Below, piece after piece: positions 8,318-49,659 of a DNA stretch of 64,000 bases. Every line of letters starts with the position of its first letter. Position 1 is the first letter of the stretch. Origin of the DNA: Gordonia iterans (GTDB lineage Bacteria; Actinomycetota; Actinomycetes; Mycobacteriales; Mycobacteriaceae); contig NZ_CP027433.1 of NCBI RefSeq assembly GCF_002993285.1, forward strand, positions 3,348,001 to 3,412,000, written 5' to 3'. The position numbers were made by a program, and so were the translations under genes. The notes below the pieces were generated by a model. That model saw only the letters and a program-made list of their open reading frames with translations, had not been told where the DNA came from and did no database searches.

Positions 8318-9982
8318 ATGACCACCGAGACCGCCGTCGCGAACGACGACGTCCTGACCACCATCGTCGAAGAGGACCATCAGGCCCCGACCTTCGCCGA
8401 GCTCGGCGTGGACGACGCCATCGTCGCCGCACTCACCGCCGACGGCAAGACGCACACCTTCGCCATCCAGGAACTGACCCTCCCGCTCGCCCTCGGCGGC
8501 AGCGACCTGATCGGCCAGGCCCGCACCGGCATGGGCAAGACCTACGGCTTCGGCATCCCGCTGCTGCACCGCCTGGTGCACGCGCAGGAGGTCGGGCTGC
8601 GGGGGCTCGACGGCACGCCGCGCGCGCTGGTGATCGTGCCGACCCGCGAGCTGTGCATCCAGGTCTTCGAGGACCTCCAGGTCGCCGCGAAGGGCGTCCG
8701 GATCACCCCGGCCGCGCCGGGAGCGGAGCGAGCGGGCGGAGACAGTGCCGCGCCGGGAGCGGAGCGCAACCTGAAGCTGACCGCCATCTACGGCGGCCGC
8801 CCCTACGATTCGCAGATCGCCGAGCTGCAGTCCGGTGTGGACGTCGTCGTCGGCACCCCGGGCCGCCTGCTCGATCTGGCTCAGCAGGGTCATCTGGTGT
8901 TGGGCAAGGTCCAGATCCTGGTGCTCGACGAGGCCGACGAGATGCTCGACCTGGGCTTCCTCCCGGACATCGAGCGGATCATGAACGCGCTGCCCACCCC
9001 GCGGCAGACCATGCTCTTCTCGGCGACCATGCCGGGCCCGATCGTCACCCTGGCGCGCACCTTCCTGACTCAGCCGACGCACATCCGCGCCGAGCAGGCC
9101 AACGACTCGGCCGTGCACGAGCGCACCACGCAGTACGTCTACCGCGCCCACGCCCTGGACAAGGCCGAACTGGTGGCCCGGATCCTGCAGGCGGAGGGCC
9201 GCGGCGCGACGATGATCTTCACTCGCACCAAGCGCACCGCCCAGAAGGTAGCCGACGATCTCGCCGAGCGCGGCTTCTCTGTCGGCGCGGTGCACGGCGA
9301 CCTCGGCCAGGTGGCCCGCGAGAAGGCGCTCGGCAAGTTCCGCGACGGCACCGTGGACGTGCTGGTGGCCACCGACGTCGCCGCCCGCGGCATCGACATC
9401 GACGACGTCACTCACGTCATCAACTACCAGTGCCCGGAGGACGACAAGACCTACGTGCACCGCATCGGCCGCACCGGCCGTGCGGGCCGCACCGGCATCG
9501 CCATCACGTTTGTGGACTGGGACGAGCTGCACCGCTGGGAGCTGATCGACAAGGCACTCGGACTGGGCAAGCCCGAGCCGGTCGAGACCTACTCCACCTC
9601 CGCGCATCTCGCTGAAGAGCTGGGTGTGCCGTCCGAGGCGACCGGCCGTGTCGGCAAGCCGACCGGCACCCGGTCGTCGAGTCGCGAGCCCGGCGACCGC
9701 GTGGAGCGACGCGAACGCCCGGCGCGCACCGAGCGTCCGAAGCGGCGTCGTACCCGCGGCGGCAAGACGACCGACGGTGCCGCGGCACCGGCTGCTGAGA
9801 CCGAGCCGGCGACGACCGGCCGGACCGCGGCCGGCGACGGGCCCGCGTCCGAGGGCGACGGCTCGACCCGCCCGCGGCGGCGCCGTCGTCGTCGTTCCGG
9901 CAGCAAGGCGACCGGCGCCGGGAGCAACGCGAGCGGGCCGACTGATACCGGCGCGGCTGCCGCGGCACCGGCCGCCGACTGA
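8318..9982 (+). CDS. DEAD-box RNA helicase
   Basis: ATP-dependent RNA helicase (Rv3211/RhlE-like), 554 residues. Core motifs are ARTGMGKT (Walker A, about 67-75), PTRELCIQV, GTPGRLL, VLDEADEML, FSATM, VATDVAARGIDI and HRIGRTGRAGR. A basic, low-complexity C-terminal tail of roughly 150 residues ([21 protein letters not shown]) likely binds RNA. Oddity: residues 132-149, between the PTREL motif and the IYGGRPY strand, are encoded by two copies of a 36-bp dispersed repeat that is absent from typical family members. The ATG gives MTTETAVAND; an upstream in-frame codon would add 13 unconserved residues. About 200 bp of 5' intergenic sequence precedes it. Confidence 0.92.
   Translation: MTTETAVANDDVLTTIVEEDHQAPTFAELGVDDAIVAALTADGKTHTFAIQELTLPLALGGSDLIGQARTGMGKTYGFGIPLLHRLVHAQEVGLRGLDGTPRALVIVPTRELCIQVFEDLQVAAKGVRITPAAPGAERAGGDSAAPGAERNLKLTAIYGGRPYDSQIAELQSGVDVVVGTPGRLLDLAQQGHLVLGKVQILVLDEADEMLDLGFLPDIERIMNALPTPRQTMLFSATMPGPIVTLARTFLTQPTHIRAEQANDSAVHERTTQYVYRAHALDKAELVARILQAEGRGATMIFTRTKRTAQKVADDLAERGFSVGAVHGDLGQVAREKALGKFRDGTVDVLVATDVAARGIDIDDVTHVINYQCPEDDKTYVHRIGRTGRAGRTGIAITFVDWDELHRWELIDKALGLGKPEPVETYSTSAHLAEELGVPSEATGRVGKPTGTRSSSREPGDRVERRERPARTERPKRRRTRGGKTTDGAAAPAAETEPATTGRTAAGDGPASEGDGSTRPRRRRRRRSGSKATGAGSNASGPTDTGAAAAAPAAD
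8711..8766. repeat. 36-bp repeat (1.5 copies) inside the DEAD-box gene
   Basis: GCCGCGCCGGGAGCGGAGCG recurs exactly 36 bp apart at 8711 and 8747. The remainder of the first unit is AGCGGGCGGAGACAGT. The minus strand of the five-copy repeat at 29437-29616 carries the same core, with the same 36-bp period. The reading frame is preserved. Confidence 0.85.
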
Positions 9983-16418: not shown

Positions 16419-17299
16419 CGGCTCCCCTCCCCTGCTTCTGTCGCCGACCCGACGCTCGTCCGCCCGATGCCGCGCTCGCGCGCCACGTCGACGAGCAGCT
16501 CACGCAGCTGCCTGCGCCCGCGGTGCAGTCGCGACATCACGGTGCCGATGGGGGTGTCCATGATCTCGGCGATCTCCTTGTACGGAAGACCTTCGACGTC
16601 GGCGTAGTAGACGGCCATCCGGCGATCCTCCGGAAGCTGGCTGAGCGCTTCCTTGATCTCGCTGTCCGGCAGCGCGTCCAGGGCTTCGATCTCCGCCGAC
16701 CGCAGGCCGGTGGAGGTGTGCTCCGCGCTGGCGGCGAGTTGCCAGTCGGTGATCTCGTCGGTCGGATACTGCGCGGGCTGACGCTGCTTCTTCCGGTACG
16801 AGTTGATGTAGGTGTTGGTCAGGATCCGGTACAGCCACGCCTTGAGGTTGGTACCCGCCTTGAACGACGAGAAGGCGGTGAACGCCTTGACGTAGGTCTC
16901 CTGGACCAGGTCCTCGGCGTCGGCCGGATTGCGGGTCATCCGCAGCGCGGCGCCGTAGAGCTGGTCGAGCAGCGGGAGCGCATCCCGTTCGAAGCGGGCC
17001 GTCAACTCCTCCGGCGTCTCGGGGGCCGTCGTCTCCTCCGGTGACTCGGACGGAGCCGTCTCGGTCGGCGAATCGGCTGGCGACACCGCGATCCCTTCGT
17101 GGCGACGTGGCGGGCGGTGTGTGCGGCCGGTCTCGTCCGGCCGGGTCACGACGCTCCCGGCGCCTGTCTCGTTCGGCCCGCTCGCGCCGTTCATGCCGAG
17201 CGGAGTCGAGGTGCTCCCGGCACCGTTGGAAATATGCTCCACCAAGCATAGCGATTCGCGCAGCGGCTGCTCAGCCGCGGTTGCCGGTACTGCGGTCAC
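16415..17299 (-). CDS. sigH: SigH ECF sigma factor, with long N-terminal extension
   Basis: Thiol-oxidative and heat stress sigma factor. Region 2 includes [20 protein letters not shown] and region 4 includes [18 protein letters not shown]. Two starts are credible. GTG at 17086 has AAGGGA six bases upstream and gives a 223-residue protein of the size seen in M. tuberculosis. GTG at 17299 lies about 35 nt below the probable start site of a SigH-type promoter and adds 71 residues (Ala/Thr/Pro-rich, one Cys) with no stop. This matches the SigR/SigR' arrangement of Streptomyces, where the long form is induced and unstable. The longer span is given to record both. Confidence 0.93.
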
Positions 17300-27916: not shown

Positions 27917-28750
27917 ATGAGCACGGTTCCCCACATCACCCTGAACAACGGCGTCACCATCCCCCAGCTCGGCTTCGGCGTCTTCCAGATCACCCCCGGC
28001 GACACCGAGAAAACGGTCGCGCAGGCCCTCGAGATCGGCTACCGGCACATCGACACCGCGCAGATGTACGGCAACGAAGCACAGGTGGGCGCGGCCGTCG
28101 CCGCCTCCGGGATCCCCCGCGACGAGATCTTCGTCACCAGCAAACTGAACAACAACGCGCACGACCCCGCCGTCGCCCGCGAGGCGACGGCGCGGACCGT
28201 CGAAGCACTGGGCGGCCCCACCGACCTGTACCTGATCCACTGGCCGATGCCCGCGGTCGGCGACTTCGTCGACACCTGGCGCGCCATGGAGGAGTTCGCC
28301 GCCGAAGGTCTCACCCGCGCGATCGGCGTCTCCAACTTCCAGATCCCGCACCTGCAGCGCCTCATCGACGAGACCGACACGGTGCCCGCGGTCAACCAGA
28401 TCGAGCTGCACCCGTACCTCACCAACGACGCGGTACGCGCCTTCGGCCGCGAGCACGGGATCGCGACCGAGCCGTGGTCGCCCATCGGCCGGGGCGAAGT
28501 GCTCGACGACCCGGTCCTGCTGACGATCGCCGCCGAAACCGGCCGCACGGTGGCCCAGGTGGTGCTGCGCTGGCATCTCCAGCGCGGCGACATCGTCTTT
28601 CCGAAGTCGGTGCGCCCCGAGCGCATGCGCGAGAACTTCGCCCTGTTCGACTTCACTCTCTCCGACGATCAGGTCTCCCGGATCAGCGCGTTGAACCGCG
28701 ACCAGCGCGTCGGCCCCGACCCCGACGAGTTCAACTGGATCCCGGACTGA
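27917..28750 (+). CDS. Aldo/keto reductase
   Basis: 277-residue NADPH-dependent (alpha/beta)8 barrel reductase close to the 2,5-diketo-gluconate reductase group. Catalytic tetrad: Asp46, Tyr51, Lys76 and His108 (in DLYLIHWP). The cofactor-site motif FPKSVRPERMREN is near the C-terminus. The physiological substrate is unknown. Divergent from the small membrane protein and followed 56 bp later by the aminotransferase. Confidence 0.92.
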   Translation: MSTVPHITLNNGVTIPQLGFGVFQITPGDTEKTVAQALEIGYRHIDTAQMYGNEAQVGAAVAASGIPRDEIFVTSKLNNNAHDPAVAREATARTVEALGGPTDLYLIHWPMPAVGDFVDTWRAMEEFAAEGLTRAIGVSNFQIPHLQRLIDETDTVPAVNQIELHPYLTNDAVRAFGREHGIATEPWSPIGRGEVLDDPVLLTIAAETGRTVAQVVLRWHLQRGDIVFPKSVRPERMRENFALFDFTLSDDQVSRISALNRDQRVGPDPDEFNWIPD

Positions 28751-28806
28751 TCCCGACCCCGCACCGACCGGTCTTCGGGCCCGCGACAGACCCTAAGATC
28801 GCGGGC

Positions 28807-30180
28807 ATGGAGTTCTCCCGGCGCGCACAGGCCGTCACCCCGTTCTATGCCATGGAGTACGGACGACGGGCCGCCGAGCTGGAGGCGCGCGGGATCCACG
28901 TGGTCAAGCTCAATCTCGGCGAGCCCGATTTCGGCGCTCCCCAGGCGTTCCTGGAGGAGATCCGGCGGATCAGCGACGGGCGGCCGCTGCCCTACACGGG
29001 TGGGCTCGGCACCCCCGCCTTACGCGCCGCGATCGCCGGATTCAGCGCCGATCGACTCGGTGCCCCCGTCGATCCCGCGCGCGTCGTAGTGACCACGGGG
29101 GCCTCGGCAGCGCTGCTCCTGGCGTGTGCGGCCCTCATCGACCCGGGCGACGAGGTACTGGTCGCCGACCCCTCCTACCCGTGCAACCGCCGCTTCGCCG
29201 AGAGCTTCGGCGCGCGGGTGCGGCTCCTGCCGACCGGCCCGGAGACGCGTTTCCAGCTCGATGGGCCCGCCGTCGCCCGCGCCTGGACTGAACGCACACG
29301 CGGCGTCATGGTCGCCTCGCCGGCCAATCCGACGGGGACCAGCCTCGCCCATGACGACCTGCTGGCGCTCACCTCCACCGTGGCCGAGCGCGGCGGCTGG
29401 CGGATCGTGGACGAGATCTACCTGTCACTCGCCGATGACTTGCGGCCCGCTCACTCCGCTCCCGGCGCCGGTGACTCGCGGCCCGCTCACTCCGCTCCCG
29501 GCGCCGGTGACTCGCGGCCCGCTCACTCCGCTCCCGGCGCCGGTGACTCGCGGCCCGCTCACTCCGCTCCCGGCGCCGGTGACTCGCGGCCCGCTCACTC
29601 CGCTCCCGGCGCCGGTGACGCCCCGACCGGATCGCCGCGGAGCATCGCCGCCGACGACCCCGGCGCGATCGTGGTGAACAGCTTCTCCAAGTACTTCGGC
29701 ATGACCGGCTGGCGCCTGGGCTGGATGGTGGTGCCGCAGGAGATGATCCCGGTCGCCGAGCGGCTGGCGCAGAATTACTACATCTGCCCGCCCACCCCGA
29801 CCCAGATCGCGGCGCTCTCGTGCTTCACGCCGGAGACCATCGCCGAGGCCGAGGAGCGACGCGCGGTCCTTCGGCACCGACGGCGACTGGTCCTCGACGG
29901 ACTGCACCGCGTGGGGCTGTCGGTACCGGTGGAACCCGACGGCGCGTTCTACGTGTACATCGACGTCGCATCCACCGGCCTGACCGCCACCGAGTTCTGC
30001 GACCGCGCCCTGGAGGAGGCGTACGTCGCCCTCACCCCGGGTAAGGACTTCGGCGACGCCGGCGCGCAGCGCTACGTCCGGCTCTCCTACGCGACGGGCG
30101 AGGAGGAACTTCGGACCGGGATCGACCGTCTCGGCGAGTTCGTCGCGCAGGCCCGCACTCGCAGCGCGCCCGAGATGTGA
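28807..30180 (+). CDS. Class I/II PLP aminotransferase with a 60-residue repeat insert
   Basis: 457-residue aspartate/branched-chain-type aminotransferase, about 60 residues longer than relatives. Fold-type I signatures are LNLGEPDFGAP, SPANPTGT, RIVDEIYLSLAD and SFSKYFGMTGWRLGW, whose Lys295 is the PLP-binding lysine; the substrate-carboxylate Arg is in YVRLSYA. Residues 211-270, between DEIYLSLAD and the lysine strand, are five exact or near-exact 12-residue repeats D(S/L)RPAHSAPGAG from a 36-bp DNA repeat. Conserved motifs flank the insert and the frame is intact, so the enzyme may be active with a long surface loop. Confidence 0.9.
   Translation: MEFSRRAQAVTPFYAMEYGRRAAELEARGIHVVKLNLGEPDFGAPQAFLEEIRRISDGRPLPYTGGLGTPALRAAIAGFSADRLGAPVDPARVVVTTGASAALLLACAALIDPGDEVLVADPSYPCNRRFAESFGARVRLLPTGPETRFQLDGPAVARAWTERTRGVMVASPANPTGTSLAHDDLLALTSTVAERGGWRIVDEIYLSLADDLRPAHSAPGAGDSRPAHSAPGAGDSRPAHSAPGAGDSRPAHSAPGAGDSRPAHSAPGAGDAPTGSPRSIAADDPGAIVVNSFSKYFGMTGWRLGWMVVPQEMIPVAERLAQNYYICPPTPTQIAALSCFTPETIAEAEERRAVLRHRRRLVLDGLHRVGLSVPVEPDGAFYVYIDVASTGLTATEFCDRALEEAYVALTPGKDFGDAGAQRYVRLSYATGEEELRTGIDRLGEFVAQARTRSAPEM
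29437..29616. repeat. Five 36-bp tandem repeats inside the aminotransferase gene
   Basis: Five contiguous 36-bp units (GACTCGCGGCCCGCTCACTC... pattern); the first differs at two bases. No spacers separate them. On the minus strand the core GCGCCGGGAGCGGAGTGAGC matches the repeat in the DEAD-box gene (8711-8766). Confidence 0.95.
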
Positions 30181-30186
30181 CGGCGT

Positions 30187-30666
30187 TCAGGTAGCGGCCT
30201 GCGAGTCGTCGAGGTAGCGGACCAGTGCGTCGACCAGCGCGACCTGCGCCGGATTGAGCTTGGTGCGCGCCGTCGGCACGTCGAACCATTCGGCGCGGTC
30301 GACTTCCGGAAATGCCTGGCGGCGGCCGGAGCGCGGCGGCCAGACGATCTCGAAGGTGTTGCTGCGCAGGGACTCCGGATCGAAGTCCCCCGCCATCCCG
30401 AACCCGGTGACCTCCTTGCCGCTGCGCAGCCGCACCCGGCCCAGCTCGACGGCCCGCCCGTCCGGCGCCGACTGCCCGGTCTCCTCGGCGAACTCGCGGC
30501 GCGCCGCGGTCAGCAGGTCCTCGCCCGGCTCCACCAGACCCTTCGGGATCGACCACGCCCCCTCGTCCTTCTTCGCGAAGAAGGGGCCGCCCGGATGGAC
30601 CAGCAGCACGCGCAGCCCGGCGCCCAGCCCGCGATACAGCAGGATTCCCGCGCTGTGCTCGGCCAT
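30187..30666 (-). CDS. Nudix hydrolase
   Basis: 159-residue Nudix protein. The box reads GLVEPGEDLLTAARREFAEE followed by TGQ, matching Gx5Ex7REUxEExGU. AGILLYRG begins the fold and a C-terminal FPEVDRAEWFDVPTAR follows. Probable NTP or sugar-nucleotide pyrophosphohydrolase; the substrate is unknown. Converges with the aminotransferase with six bp between stops, and is divergent from aroA. Confidence 0.9.
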   Translation of the reverse strand: MAEHSAGILLYRGLGAGLRVLLVHPGGPFFAKKDEGAWSIPKGLVEPGEDLLTAARREFAEETGQSAPDGRAVELGRVRLRSGKEVTGFGMAGDFDPESLRSNTFEIVWPPRSGRRQAFPEVDRAEWFDVPTARTKLNPAQVALVDALVRYLDDSQAAT

Positions 30667-32158: not shown

Positions 32159-33282
32159 GCCGCGATGCCCGCTCCTACGACGAGTCCGACGTCCGGATCC
32201 GTCCCGGAAAGGGCACCCGGCCGCGCACCAAGAAGCGGCCGGCACACGACGACGCCGAGACCGCGATGGTGGTCTCCGTCGACCGCGGCCGCTGGGGATG
32301 CGTGCTCGACGGCGATCCGGACCGCCGCGTCGTCGCCATGCGGGCACGGGAGCTCGGTCGCACCCCGGTGGTCGTCGGCGACCGCGTCGGCGTCGTCGGC
32401 GATCTCTCCGGCAAGCCGGACACTCTCGCCCGCATCGTCCGTGTGGACGACCGTACGACGGTGCTACGGCGCACCGCCGACGACACCGACCCGTACGAGC
32501 GGATCGTCGTCGCGAACGCCGATCAGTTGCTGATCGTCACCGCACTGGCCGATCCCCCGCCGCGCACCGGGTTCGTCGAACGCGCTCTCGCCGCCGCCTA
32601 TGCGGGCGGACTCGAACCCGTTCTGTGTCTGACGAAGTCGGATCTGGCGTCGCCGGAGGAGTTCGCAGCGCACTTCGCCGACCTGGACCTCCCGGTGGTC
32701 CTCGGGGGGCGCGACGACGACCTCACCGCCCTCGAGAAGATCCTGGCCGGCAAGCTCACCGCGCTGATCGGGCATTCGGGCGTCGGCAAGTCCACACTGG
32801 TGAACCGCCTGGTCCCGGATGCCTTCCGGGCGGTCGGCCGGGTCTCGGGCATCGGCAAGGGCCGCCACACGTCGACGCAGTCGGTGGCGCTCCCGGTTCC
32901 TTTCGACGGAGCTCAAGGGGCGGCGACTTCCGACAGGGCTCAAGGGGCGGCGACTTCCGACAGGGCTCAAGGAGCGACGACAGCACCCAGCTCCTTGAGC
33001 CCCGTCGAAAGGACCTGGGTGGTCGACACGCCGGGCATCCGGTCCTTCGGGCTCGCGCACGTGACGCCCGACGAGATCGTCGACGCCTTCGCCGACCTGC
33101 GCGAGGCCATCGACGAATGCCCGCGCGGCTGTACGCATCTCGGTCCGCCCGCCGATCCGGAGTGCGCGCTGGACGAGCTCACCGACGGCTCCCGACGTCG
33201 TGCGATGGCCGTGCGCGAACTGCTGGTCGCCGTGCGCGACGACGGCCCGGAAGACGAGGTCCCCGCCGAAGCCGCACGGTAG
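32155..33282 (+). CDS. rsgA: RsgA ribosome small-subunit-dependent GTPase with repeat insert
   Basis: Circularly permuted GTPase that matures or checks the 30S subunit. 375 residues, about 45 longer than the M. tuberculosis homologue. G4 TKSD precedes G1 GHSGVGKST (about 206-214) and G3 DTPG, the permuted order. The C-terminal zinc site has [16 protein letters not shown]. Residues of about 250-285, between the switch segment HTSTQSVAL and the G3 strand, come from 27-bp repeats within a palindrome and contain AQGAATSDR twice. All GTPase motifs are intact. GTG start coupled to aroA. Confidence 0.93.
32899..33011. repeat. Palindrome with 27-bp tandem units inside rsgA
   Basis: Outer arms CCTTTCGACGGAGCTCAAGG (32899-32918) and CCTTGAGCCCCGTCGAAAGG (32992-33011) are inverted repeats with one mismatch. 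Between them are two full 27-bp units beginning GCTCAAGGGGCGGCGACTTC at 32911 and 32938 and a diverged third. Frame is kept. Confidence 0.9.
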
Positions 33283-48792: not shown

Positions 48793-48910
48793 CTGGTCGA
48801 GCGAAGTCGAGACCCCGCCCCGGCCGAGCACAACCCCACGCTGGTCGAGCGAAGTCGAGACCCCGCCCCGGCCGAGCACAACCCCACGCTGGTCGAGCGA
48901 AGTCGAGACC
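48793..48910. repeat. 48-bp tandem repeat with GGTCGAGCGAAGTCGAGACC palindrome
   Basis: Units start at 48793, 48841 and 48889 (2.5 copies, identical). Each begins CT followed by the imperfect palindrome GGTCGAGCGAAGTCGAGACC. The array ends 16 bp before the tmk ATG and lies 84 bp upstream of mtrA, so it occupies the shared promoter region. Confidence 0.95.
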
Positions 48911-48926
48911 ACCTACGATCACCGCC

Positions 48927-49577
48927 ATGGGAATCCTCGTGGCGATCGAAGGCCTGGACGGCGCCGGAAAGAACACGATCGTCCAGCGCATCGCGGCCGA
49001 GGCCGCGGCCCGCGGAGTCTCGCTCACCACGATGGCGTTCCCCGCATACGGCCGGTCGATTCACGCCGATCTCGCCGCGGAGGCGCTCCACGGAGAGCAC
49101 GGCGACGTCGCCCGAAGCGCCTATGCGATGGCGCTCCTGTTCGCCCTGGACCGGCGCGATGTCCGAGACGCCCTGGTGCGCGCCCTCGCCGAGCACGACG
49201 TCGTCCTGTGCGACCGCTACGTGGCGTCCAACGCCGCCTACAGTGCCGCGCGCCTGGGTCAGCGGCACGACGGCGAGGTGGTCACCTGGGTCCGCGATCT
49301 GGAGTTCGGCCGCTTCGCCCTCCCCCGGCCGAATCATCAACTGCTGCTGGGAGTTCCGCCCGAGGTGGCGATGGGACGTGCAGAAGGTCGCGCGGCCGCC
49401 GATGCGTCGCGGGCCAAGGACGCCTACGAGCGCGACGCGGACCTGCAGACGAGGGTGTACCGCTCGTACTCGGATCTCGCGGCGAATTCGTGGATCTCGG
49501 ACTGGACCGTCGCCGACGGCGACGAGGCCGTCGCGAAGGTCCTGTCCCTGATCGCGTTTCGACACGGACTCGGCTAG
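48927..49577 (+). CDS. tmk: Thymidylate kinase
   Basis: 216-residue dTMP kinase (dTMP to dTDP). The P-loop is EGLDGAGKNT (about 7-16), the DR(Y/H) motif is LCDRYVASNAAYSAAR and the LID-like region holds EGRAAADASRAKDAYERD. Start ATG just after the tandem palindrome; no strong ribosome site is seen. The last seven codons (FRHGLG and stop) lie inside the first copy of a 55-bp repeat. Orientation is opposite to mtrA and sahH, unlike M. tuberculosis. Confidence 0.95.
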   Translation: MGILVAIEGLDGAGKNTIVQRIAAEAAARGVSLTTMAFPAYGRSIHADLAAEALHGEHGDVARSAYAMALLFALDRRDVRDALVRALAEHDVVLCDRYVASNAAYSAARLGQRHDGEVVTWVRDLEFGRFALPRPNHQLLLGVPPEVAMGRAEGRAAADASRAKDAYERDADLQTRVYRSYSDLAANSWISDWTVADGDEAVAKVLSLIAFRHGLG

Positions 49578-49659
49578 CGCCTCGCCCGGCTCAACGACCG
49601 AAGACAAGGCGTTTCGACACGGACTCAGCTAGCGCCTCGCCCGGCTTAACGAGCGAAGC
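49554..49659. repeat. Two 55-bp direct repeats overlapping the tmk 3' end
   Basis: GCGTTTCGACACGGACTC(G/A)G followed by CTAGCGCCTCGCCCGGCT begins at 49554 and again at 49609. The TAG of the first copy is the tmk stop codon. Confidence 0.88.

Follow-up and report, generated by a model that had tools for sequence, protein, structure and literature searches.

Short palindromic repeats in the genes of Gordonia and a five-unit array in an aminotransferase gene

Rickettsia palindromic elements are hairpin-forming sequences of about 100-150 bp in obligate intracellular bacteria. In the available sections of the sources, they are found in frame in many unrelated conserved enzymes, and the gene product tolerates them (PMC2229807, PMC10969869). 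REPs are imperfect hairpins of 20-40 bp, often in 20-100 copies, which occur singly and in clusters and are in some cases intragenic. According to the sections available, most REPs are intergenic, their tags are constant, GTAG REPs often lie beside RAYT genes, and CGTC-type REPs have no associated transposase genes (PMC3733652). No word starting with "actinobacter" occurs in the main text of PMC3733652, and Gordonia goes unmentioned in the accessible part of a survey of satellites in prokaryotes (PMC6749651). Among the matches listed, whose titles and abstract openings were covered, no description of the repeat reported here was found in the open-access literature. Six pieces of its core or of the second repeat described below, searched as text, did not occur in the open-access papers covered.

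Gordonia are free-living, high-GC actinobacteria. In-frame invasion of proteins by short repeats is described in reviews, as far as their accessible text goes, mainly for Rickettsia, and here it is genus-wide in actinobacteria. The window analysed in this study is a stretch of 64,000 nucleotides of Gordonia iterans (contig NZ_CP027433.1, positions 3,348,001 to 3,412,000).

The aminotransferase gene and its 60-residue insert

The features at this locus are as follows.
28807..30180, plus strand: class I/II aminotransferase (PF00155) of 457 amino acids including a 60-residue insert, assigned by PF00155 (1.7e-55), alignment to solved structures and AlphaFold2
29437..29616, plus strand: five tandem 36-bp units, GACTCGCGGCCCGCTCACTCCGCTCCCGGCGCCGGT in gene sense, with the family core on the minus strand
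29447..29465, minus strand: first of five 19-bp hairpin cores, CCGGGAGCGGAGTGAGCGG; the others lie at +36, +72, +108 and +144

The units start at 29437, 29473, 29509, 29545 and 29581 and encode DLRPAHSAPGAG followed by four copies of DSRPAHSAPGAG. TRF places the repeat at 29430-29619, with a period of 36, 5.3 copies and a match of 98%. The DEIY motif precedes the insert and the intact NSFSKY strand that carries the PLP lysine follows it, and the ORF runs across the array without a stop. On either side of the insert, the enzyme aligns to solved aminotransferases as two separate parts, one ending at about residue 210 and the other starting at about residue 284; the PF00155 match and the PLP-lysine strand identify the protein as an aminotransferase. 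A preliminary description of this DNA had proposed five 36-bp units between these motifs, both intact, and a high identity among the copies. TRF, the alignments and the open ORF bear out the former, and the latter is also correct, the sole difference being one base, TTG (Leu) in unit 1 and TCG (Ser) elsewhere.

In the AlphaFold2 model (28 sequences), pLDDT is at least 90 in 334 of 457 residues and below 50 at residues 214-249 and 251-274. Because the very low confidence there resembles that of disordered loops and the remainder is modelled confidently, we read the insert as a predicted disordered loop and the enzyme as normal in other respects. The enzyme presumably tolerates this loop, which may have no required function. 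No Rfam match up to an E-value of 5 was obtained over 28700-30300. No plasmid record among the 219 that matched the aminotransferase region covers 80% of this query; the best 20 of the 219 cover 18% of it, in the stretch of a NUDIX gene.

Orthologue-like matches to the aminotransferase are present in 56 of 59 Gordonia genomes, our own included. Where the corresponding stretch was read (28 of 29 Gordonia loci and eight of nine named loci, the other two being missed by the reading pattern), it comprises 53 to 62 residues in relatives versus 117 here, and the repeat is absent from every one of these sites. One relative (G014) has the exact empty site, GCCGATGACGCCCC, where the present gene has GCCGAT, the five units and GACGCCCC. 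Judged from these sequences, the array is a gain of this lineage. The preliminary description had named an ancient domain in distant homologues as the finding that would speak against its reading; such a domain was looked for and not found.

Empty sites were also sought elsewhere. Of the arrays of our own genome, 27 of 39 entered the query, and 28 arrays had a relative for comparison. At seven loci, once exactly n x 36 bp is deleted, a 500-bp stretch aligns over an equal length of the relative. Together with the empty orthologous sites, this upholds the earlier proposal of a dispersed repeat that inserts into coding sequence and expands there. A core-like string was found in one of 73 site-by-relative comparisons and in one of 73 controls. 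Since such strings are no commoner at the compared sites than in controls, turnover of the insertions looks fast relative to the divergence of the species compared. Where our own genome has an insertion in a prolyl-oligopeptidase gene, G048 (L281, 3979900-3981400) has another extra stretch with GCGAGCGGGCCCGAT. It may represent an independent insertion at this spot that has since decayed and that the core-like-string test missed.

The repeat family and its predicted hairpin

The family is defined by its DNA and not by its peptide: a 19-bp core, CCGGGAGCGNAGCGAGCGG, lies between 4-bp arms that vary between loci yet remain complementary. Our own genome, a single contig of 4.0 Mb that is 100% complete, has 58 exact matches to the pattern CCGGGARCGNNGYGAGCGG and none to the reversed pattern, as the earlier proposal of a dispersed repeat of this genome had suggested. 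These cores are distributed over 17 tandem arrays (44 cores) and 14 single sites. The pattern is present in 57 of 59 Gordonia genomes, at 0 to 103 copies each, and the reversed control gave three matches in all 59. Tandem arrays of the family are found in 48 of the 59.

In a draw from the wider family, 73 of 301 genomes had a match, 30 of the genomes drawn being Gordonia. Outside Gordonia, the genus g30 has several copies in most of its genomes, and three others (g10, g12 and g18) have a few; the remaining genera carry none or one, like the control. Tandem pairs with periods of 35-39 occur in 12 of 19 wider-family genomes, which had been picked for having copies. A 72-bp unit matched one plasmid record, through a 32-bp piece in a helicase gene of Tsukamurella tyrosinosolvens. 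Phage records had no match to the repeat, and 76 stretches of viral contigs had one match each, which was taken as background.

The comparison set comprised 122 arrays with 298 cores, namely 39 arrays of our own genome (31 with an exact core and eight with one mismatch) and 83 from 80 fetched stretches of other species, all from genomes G001 to G018 and every one chosen as a tandem array. One-mismatch sites at 1475575, 2063525 and 3608966 and the array at 473338, whose core is shorter by 3, were left out of the 39. The four arm positions form Watson-Crick pairs in 98, 98, 97 and 92% of the 122 arrays and the next position in 7%, with several types of pair at each position. The arms are CGGC/GCCG in 65 arrays, GGGC/GCCC in 16, CCGC/GCGG in 6, CGCC/GGCG in 5, CGTC/GACG in 3, GAAC/GTTC in 1 and others in the rest. 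With the kinship of arrays ignored, 96.1% of arm positions are paired overall, versus 78% (maximum 81.1%) when shuffled 2000 times; if the CGGC arms are set aside, kinship likewise ignored, the remaining 51 arrays give 93.6% versus 61% (maximum 72.1%). Core positions 7 and 13 are G-C in 105 of the 122 arrays, A-T in 11, G-T in 3 and other in 3, and the triloop is GNA in 113. Between loci, conservation extends to about 28 of the 36 bases, with four more conserved weakly.

On one strand, the predicted fold consists of the 4-bp covarying arms, CCG/CGG, a GGA/GAG internal loop, GC/GC and the GNA triloop. GGA/GAG may form sheared G-A pairs. The canonical piece is predicted to form the same hairpin as DNA and as RNA, with an energy that is unremarkable against shuffles (z 0.18 as DNA, -1.0 as RNA), and two of five DNA test pieces, one variant arm and the bare core, folded differently. 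Action at the level of RNA was considered in view of the predicted RNA fold, but antisense copies occur. The centre of the core, GC-GNA-GC, is that of the exceptionally stable DNA mini-hairpin d(GCGNAGC), which is described as heat-stable and nuclease-resistant in vitro in the accessible part of PMC4686876. There, however, it is part of a synthetic aptamer, and that part of the text makes no link to a mobile repeat.

Reading frame, host genes and insertion sites

We chose a filter that uses ORF length and the GC pattern of codons; by it, 77 of the 122 arrays lie in confident coding frames, as do 35 of the 39 in our own genome. The 45 arrays of uncertain coding status were excluded from the counts of frame and orientation, and frames were set by hand for the arrays at 2006270, 3081262, 2265818 and 3377447. 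In confident coding tandem arrays, the first period is a multiple of 3 in 58 of 59 (36 in 54, 39 in three, 33 in one and 37 in one). Other tandem arrays have 36 in 30 cases and 35, 37, 38, 39 or 40 in 10 together. A first period indivisible by 3 occurs in nine arrays, of which eight lie outside the confident coding set; the lone one inside it, with period 37, speaks against the frame rule or against its coding call. The 18 tandem arrays of our own genome have period 36, except one of 39. The frame is kept in genes because each unit adds about 36 bp, and we read the natural unit length as about 36, filtered by the reading frame. The expansion in multiples of 36 that had been proposed earlier is thus the prevailing pattern but not the only one, as periods from 33 to 40 also occur.

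The family is in gene sense in 61 of the 77 confident coding arrays and antisense in 16, where 48% sense was expected from CGGCG in the same genes (p 3e-8, kinship ignored). Among the 61 sense arrays, 52 are read in the AGSGASGPN frame (58% expected, p 6e-6, kinship again ignored), nine in the PGAERAG frame and none in the arginine-glutamate frame RRERSERAE.

A protein-family scan covered the aminotransferase and 31 of the 39 own-array ORFs. The hosts named include acetate kinase, 3-oxoacyl-ACP reductase, two acyl-CoA dehydrogenases, glutamate synthase, enoyl-CoA hydratase and acetoacetate-CoA ligase. They also include MoeA, valyl- and alanyl-tRNA synthetases, ribulose-phosphate epimerase (at its N-terminus), malate synthase, an Era-type GTPase (GTPase and KH domains), isocitrate/isopropylmalate dehydrogenase, a LigD primase domain, NrdI, ResB, a prolyl oligopeptidase and, twice, the DEAD-box gene of the window. 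The Gordonia repeat enters enzymes essential in most bacteria. Insertions near gene N-termini, apparently in frame, were seen at genome positions 2265818, 473338, 1262791 and 1976164, and include those in ribulose-phosphate epimerase and a fatty-acid desaturase. Their hosts also include genes that we take to be UDP-galactopyranose-mutase-like and Dxr-like.

The DEAD-box gene has the following features.
8318..9982, plus strand: DEAD-box helicase gene with two family insertions, assigned by PF00270, PF00271 and its translation
8717..8766, plus strand: insertion 1, a full core, spacer and partial second core, reading PGAERAGGDSAAPGAER
9918..9953, plus strand: insertion 2, in the C-terminal tail, with a core one base off the search pattern, reading AGSNASGPTDTG

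The element is translated in a different frame at each of the two insertions. When up to three mismatches are allowed, an 18-bp stretch of the unit has seven matches versus 0.36 expected by chance: the five units, position 8716 in the DEAD-box gene on the opposite strand (one mismatch) and a weak one at 17144 (three mismatches). The same family had earlier been placed in this gene in the opposite orientation, and the match at 8716 agrees with that; the gene, however, has two separate insertions (8717 and 9918), not one.

Of 70 comparisons around the junction, 41 were gap-free, and these come from 16 arrays. For seven of the 16, the empty site reads CGGCG in one or more relatives, versus 0.42 expected at the same codon phase, and for 11 it is within one mismatch of CGGCG, versus 2.85 expected. 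A 7-bp target repeat is clear by eye at two loci only, 227653 (AACGGCG/AACGGTG, one mismatch) and 1262791 (GATGTTG). Among the seven positions from -12 to -6, six have more lag repeats than shuffles in the 99 tandem arrays, and one does in the 23 single copies. Repetition of target bases over tandem arrays is significant but partial, and a uniform 7-bp target duplication was dropped, the lag repeats being only partial. A guide-target rule, in which the host target would supply or select the arm, was also dropped, because element arm and empty-site target agree at 851389 but disagree at 400834, 3040752 and 3081262.

The spacer is locus-specific, with 81 different spacers in 84 arrays, so the arrays grew by copying of the inserted unit and not by repeated arrival. 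The spacer begins with a weak AATG consensus of its own, so any ends given for the moving unit are provisional. Within each array listed the spacers are the same or similar, which does not fit a CRISPR.

Origin of the insertions and other repeats of the window

Like the Rickettsia palindromic elements, the Gordonia repeat inserts in frame, has empty sites in relatives and is a stem-loop palindrome by its arms and predicted fold, the latter not being more stable than shuffles. Unlike them, it has a unit of 36 bp instead of the 100-150 bp given in the accessible text on those elements; it is also mostly tandem and occurs in both orientations with one preferred, a difference that is set against descriptions of the Rickettsia elements. 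It resembles the REPs as a short, dispersed, imperfect hairpin in many copies. However, the position table of 84 arrays shows neither a GTAG nor a CGTC tag kept constant next to the stem, and the outermost arms vary and covary whereas the tags of REPs, as far as described in the sections available, are constant. The REPs are mostly extragenic, whereas 35 of the 39 arrays in our own genome are coding by the filter. The Y1 transposase domain PF01797, expected with RAYT, was found in none of the 59 Gordonia genomes, its control being positive in five of 14 named genomes; the Y2 domain PF04986 was also found in none, and its control had no match either. The ends of IS200/IS605 elements are hairpins of single-stranded DNA that adjoin a short target sequence. 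The Gordonia repeat differs from them in the missing Y1 transposase and in the disagreement of arm and empty-site target at the three arrays named above. Because it departs from the Rickettsia elements in length and from RAYT-associated REPs in tag, location and transposase, it is placed in neither group, and we file it as a palindromic repeat of its own.

We are fairly confident that the loop consists of five tandem copies of a mobile repeat of Gordonia that is short, palindromic and non-autonomous. Most likely, this is a selfish hairpin mobilised in trans, the mobiliser being a putative enzyme. The element was gained preferentially at CGGCG-like sites; it would be moved as a folded single strand by that enzyme, with a few target bases repeated. 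Insertions that shift the frame or yield a bad peptide would be purged, leaving multiples of 3 and the flexible gene-sense reading AGSGASGPN. After insertion, the short direct repeats would permit tandem amplification by slippage or unequal exchange. As a tentative extension, these may be gene-invading elements far smaller than the in-frame ones described in the accessible literature, and they may move without Y1. An undescribed enzyme might act on the GNA mini-hairpin and its GGA/GAG pairs, or the hairpin, being nuclease-proof, might persist as a free single-stranded oligonucleotide that repair captures at CGGCG; the genus would thereby be continuously adding 12-residue loops.

Movement in trans by a Y1 (HUH) tyrosine transposase, as in the REP/RAYT system, would account for a short imperfect hairpin with conserved unpaired bases that is dispersed and lies inside genes, and REPs too are reported in coding regions in the accessible part of PMC3733652. 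The missing Y1 domain is compatible with a REP-like origin, since CGTC-tagged REPs are likewise described there without a linked transposase. Nevertheless, with PF01797 in 0 of 59 genomes and no constant GTAG or CGTC tag, we consider this system unlikely. It is likewise doubtful that selection at the protein level spreads or expands a useful flexible linker, AGSGASGPN, for the sake of the peptide. The strong preference for one frame and for gene-sense orientation fits such selection, but the DNA arms covary between loci, the 16 antisense copies among the 77 confident coding ones yield a different peptide, the host enzymes are unrelated, and arrays outside the confident coding set also have periods of 35, 37, 38 and 40.

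Two further readings are highly improbable. Growth of the arrays in tandem and the frequency of CGGCG among empty sites are both to be expected if nothing had been inserted, a native CGGCG-rich stretch had expanded by slippage, and the family likeness were convergence of GC-rich sequence. We call this reading refuted: the 19-bp core is common to dozens of unrelated loci while the reversed pattern is absent from our own genome, and 23 of the 122 arrays are single-copy insertions. Perfect tandem repeats are in general hard to assemble, which would favour an artefact of assembly or of homologous recombination, the other finding that the preliminary description had named against itself. It was not found; because tandem arrays of the family occur in 48 of 59 genomes, some with differences from unit to unit, and our own genome is one complete contig, an artefact is unlikely and the array is real.

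A mobile repeat of Gordonia offers natural experiments: some genes carry no loop and others 1 or 5, relatives have empty sites, and the preference for frame and orientation can be measured. Gain of protein loops thereby becomes a directly testable question, and the finding points to a mobilising activity on a known ultra-stable DNA hairpin.

The window contains other repeats. A second hairpin repeat, GGTCGAGCGNAGTCGAGACC, is present in three copies at 48 bp in window positions 48795-48910, between two ORFs that are presumably response-regulator-like and thymidylate-kinase-like. It occurs at 107 places in our own genome (up to two mismatches), and the reversed pattern at none. Its stem variants GATC..GATC and GGTT..AACC covary, and its centre is GAGCGNAG, similar to the centre of the in-gene repeats. 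Since stems covary in both and the centres are alike, the two may form one superfamily. A 55-bp repeat (1.9 copies, 94%) lies at 49554-49658, across the end of the thymidylate-kinase-like ORF and just beyond it. Tandem repeats at 164-295 (21/42 bp) and 32900-32981 (27 bp) have periods that are multiples of 3 and different consensus units.
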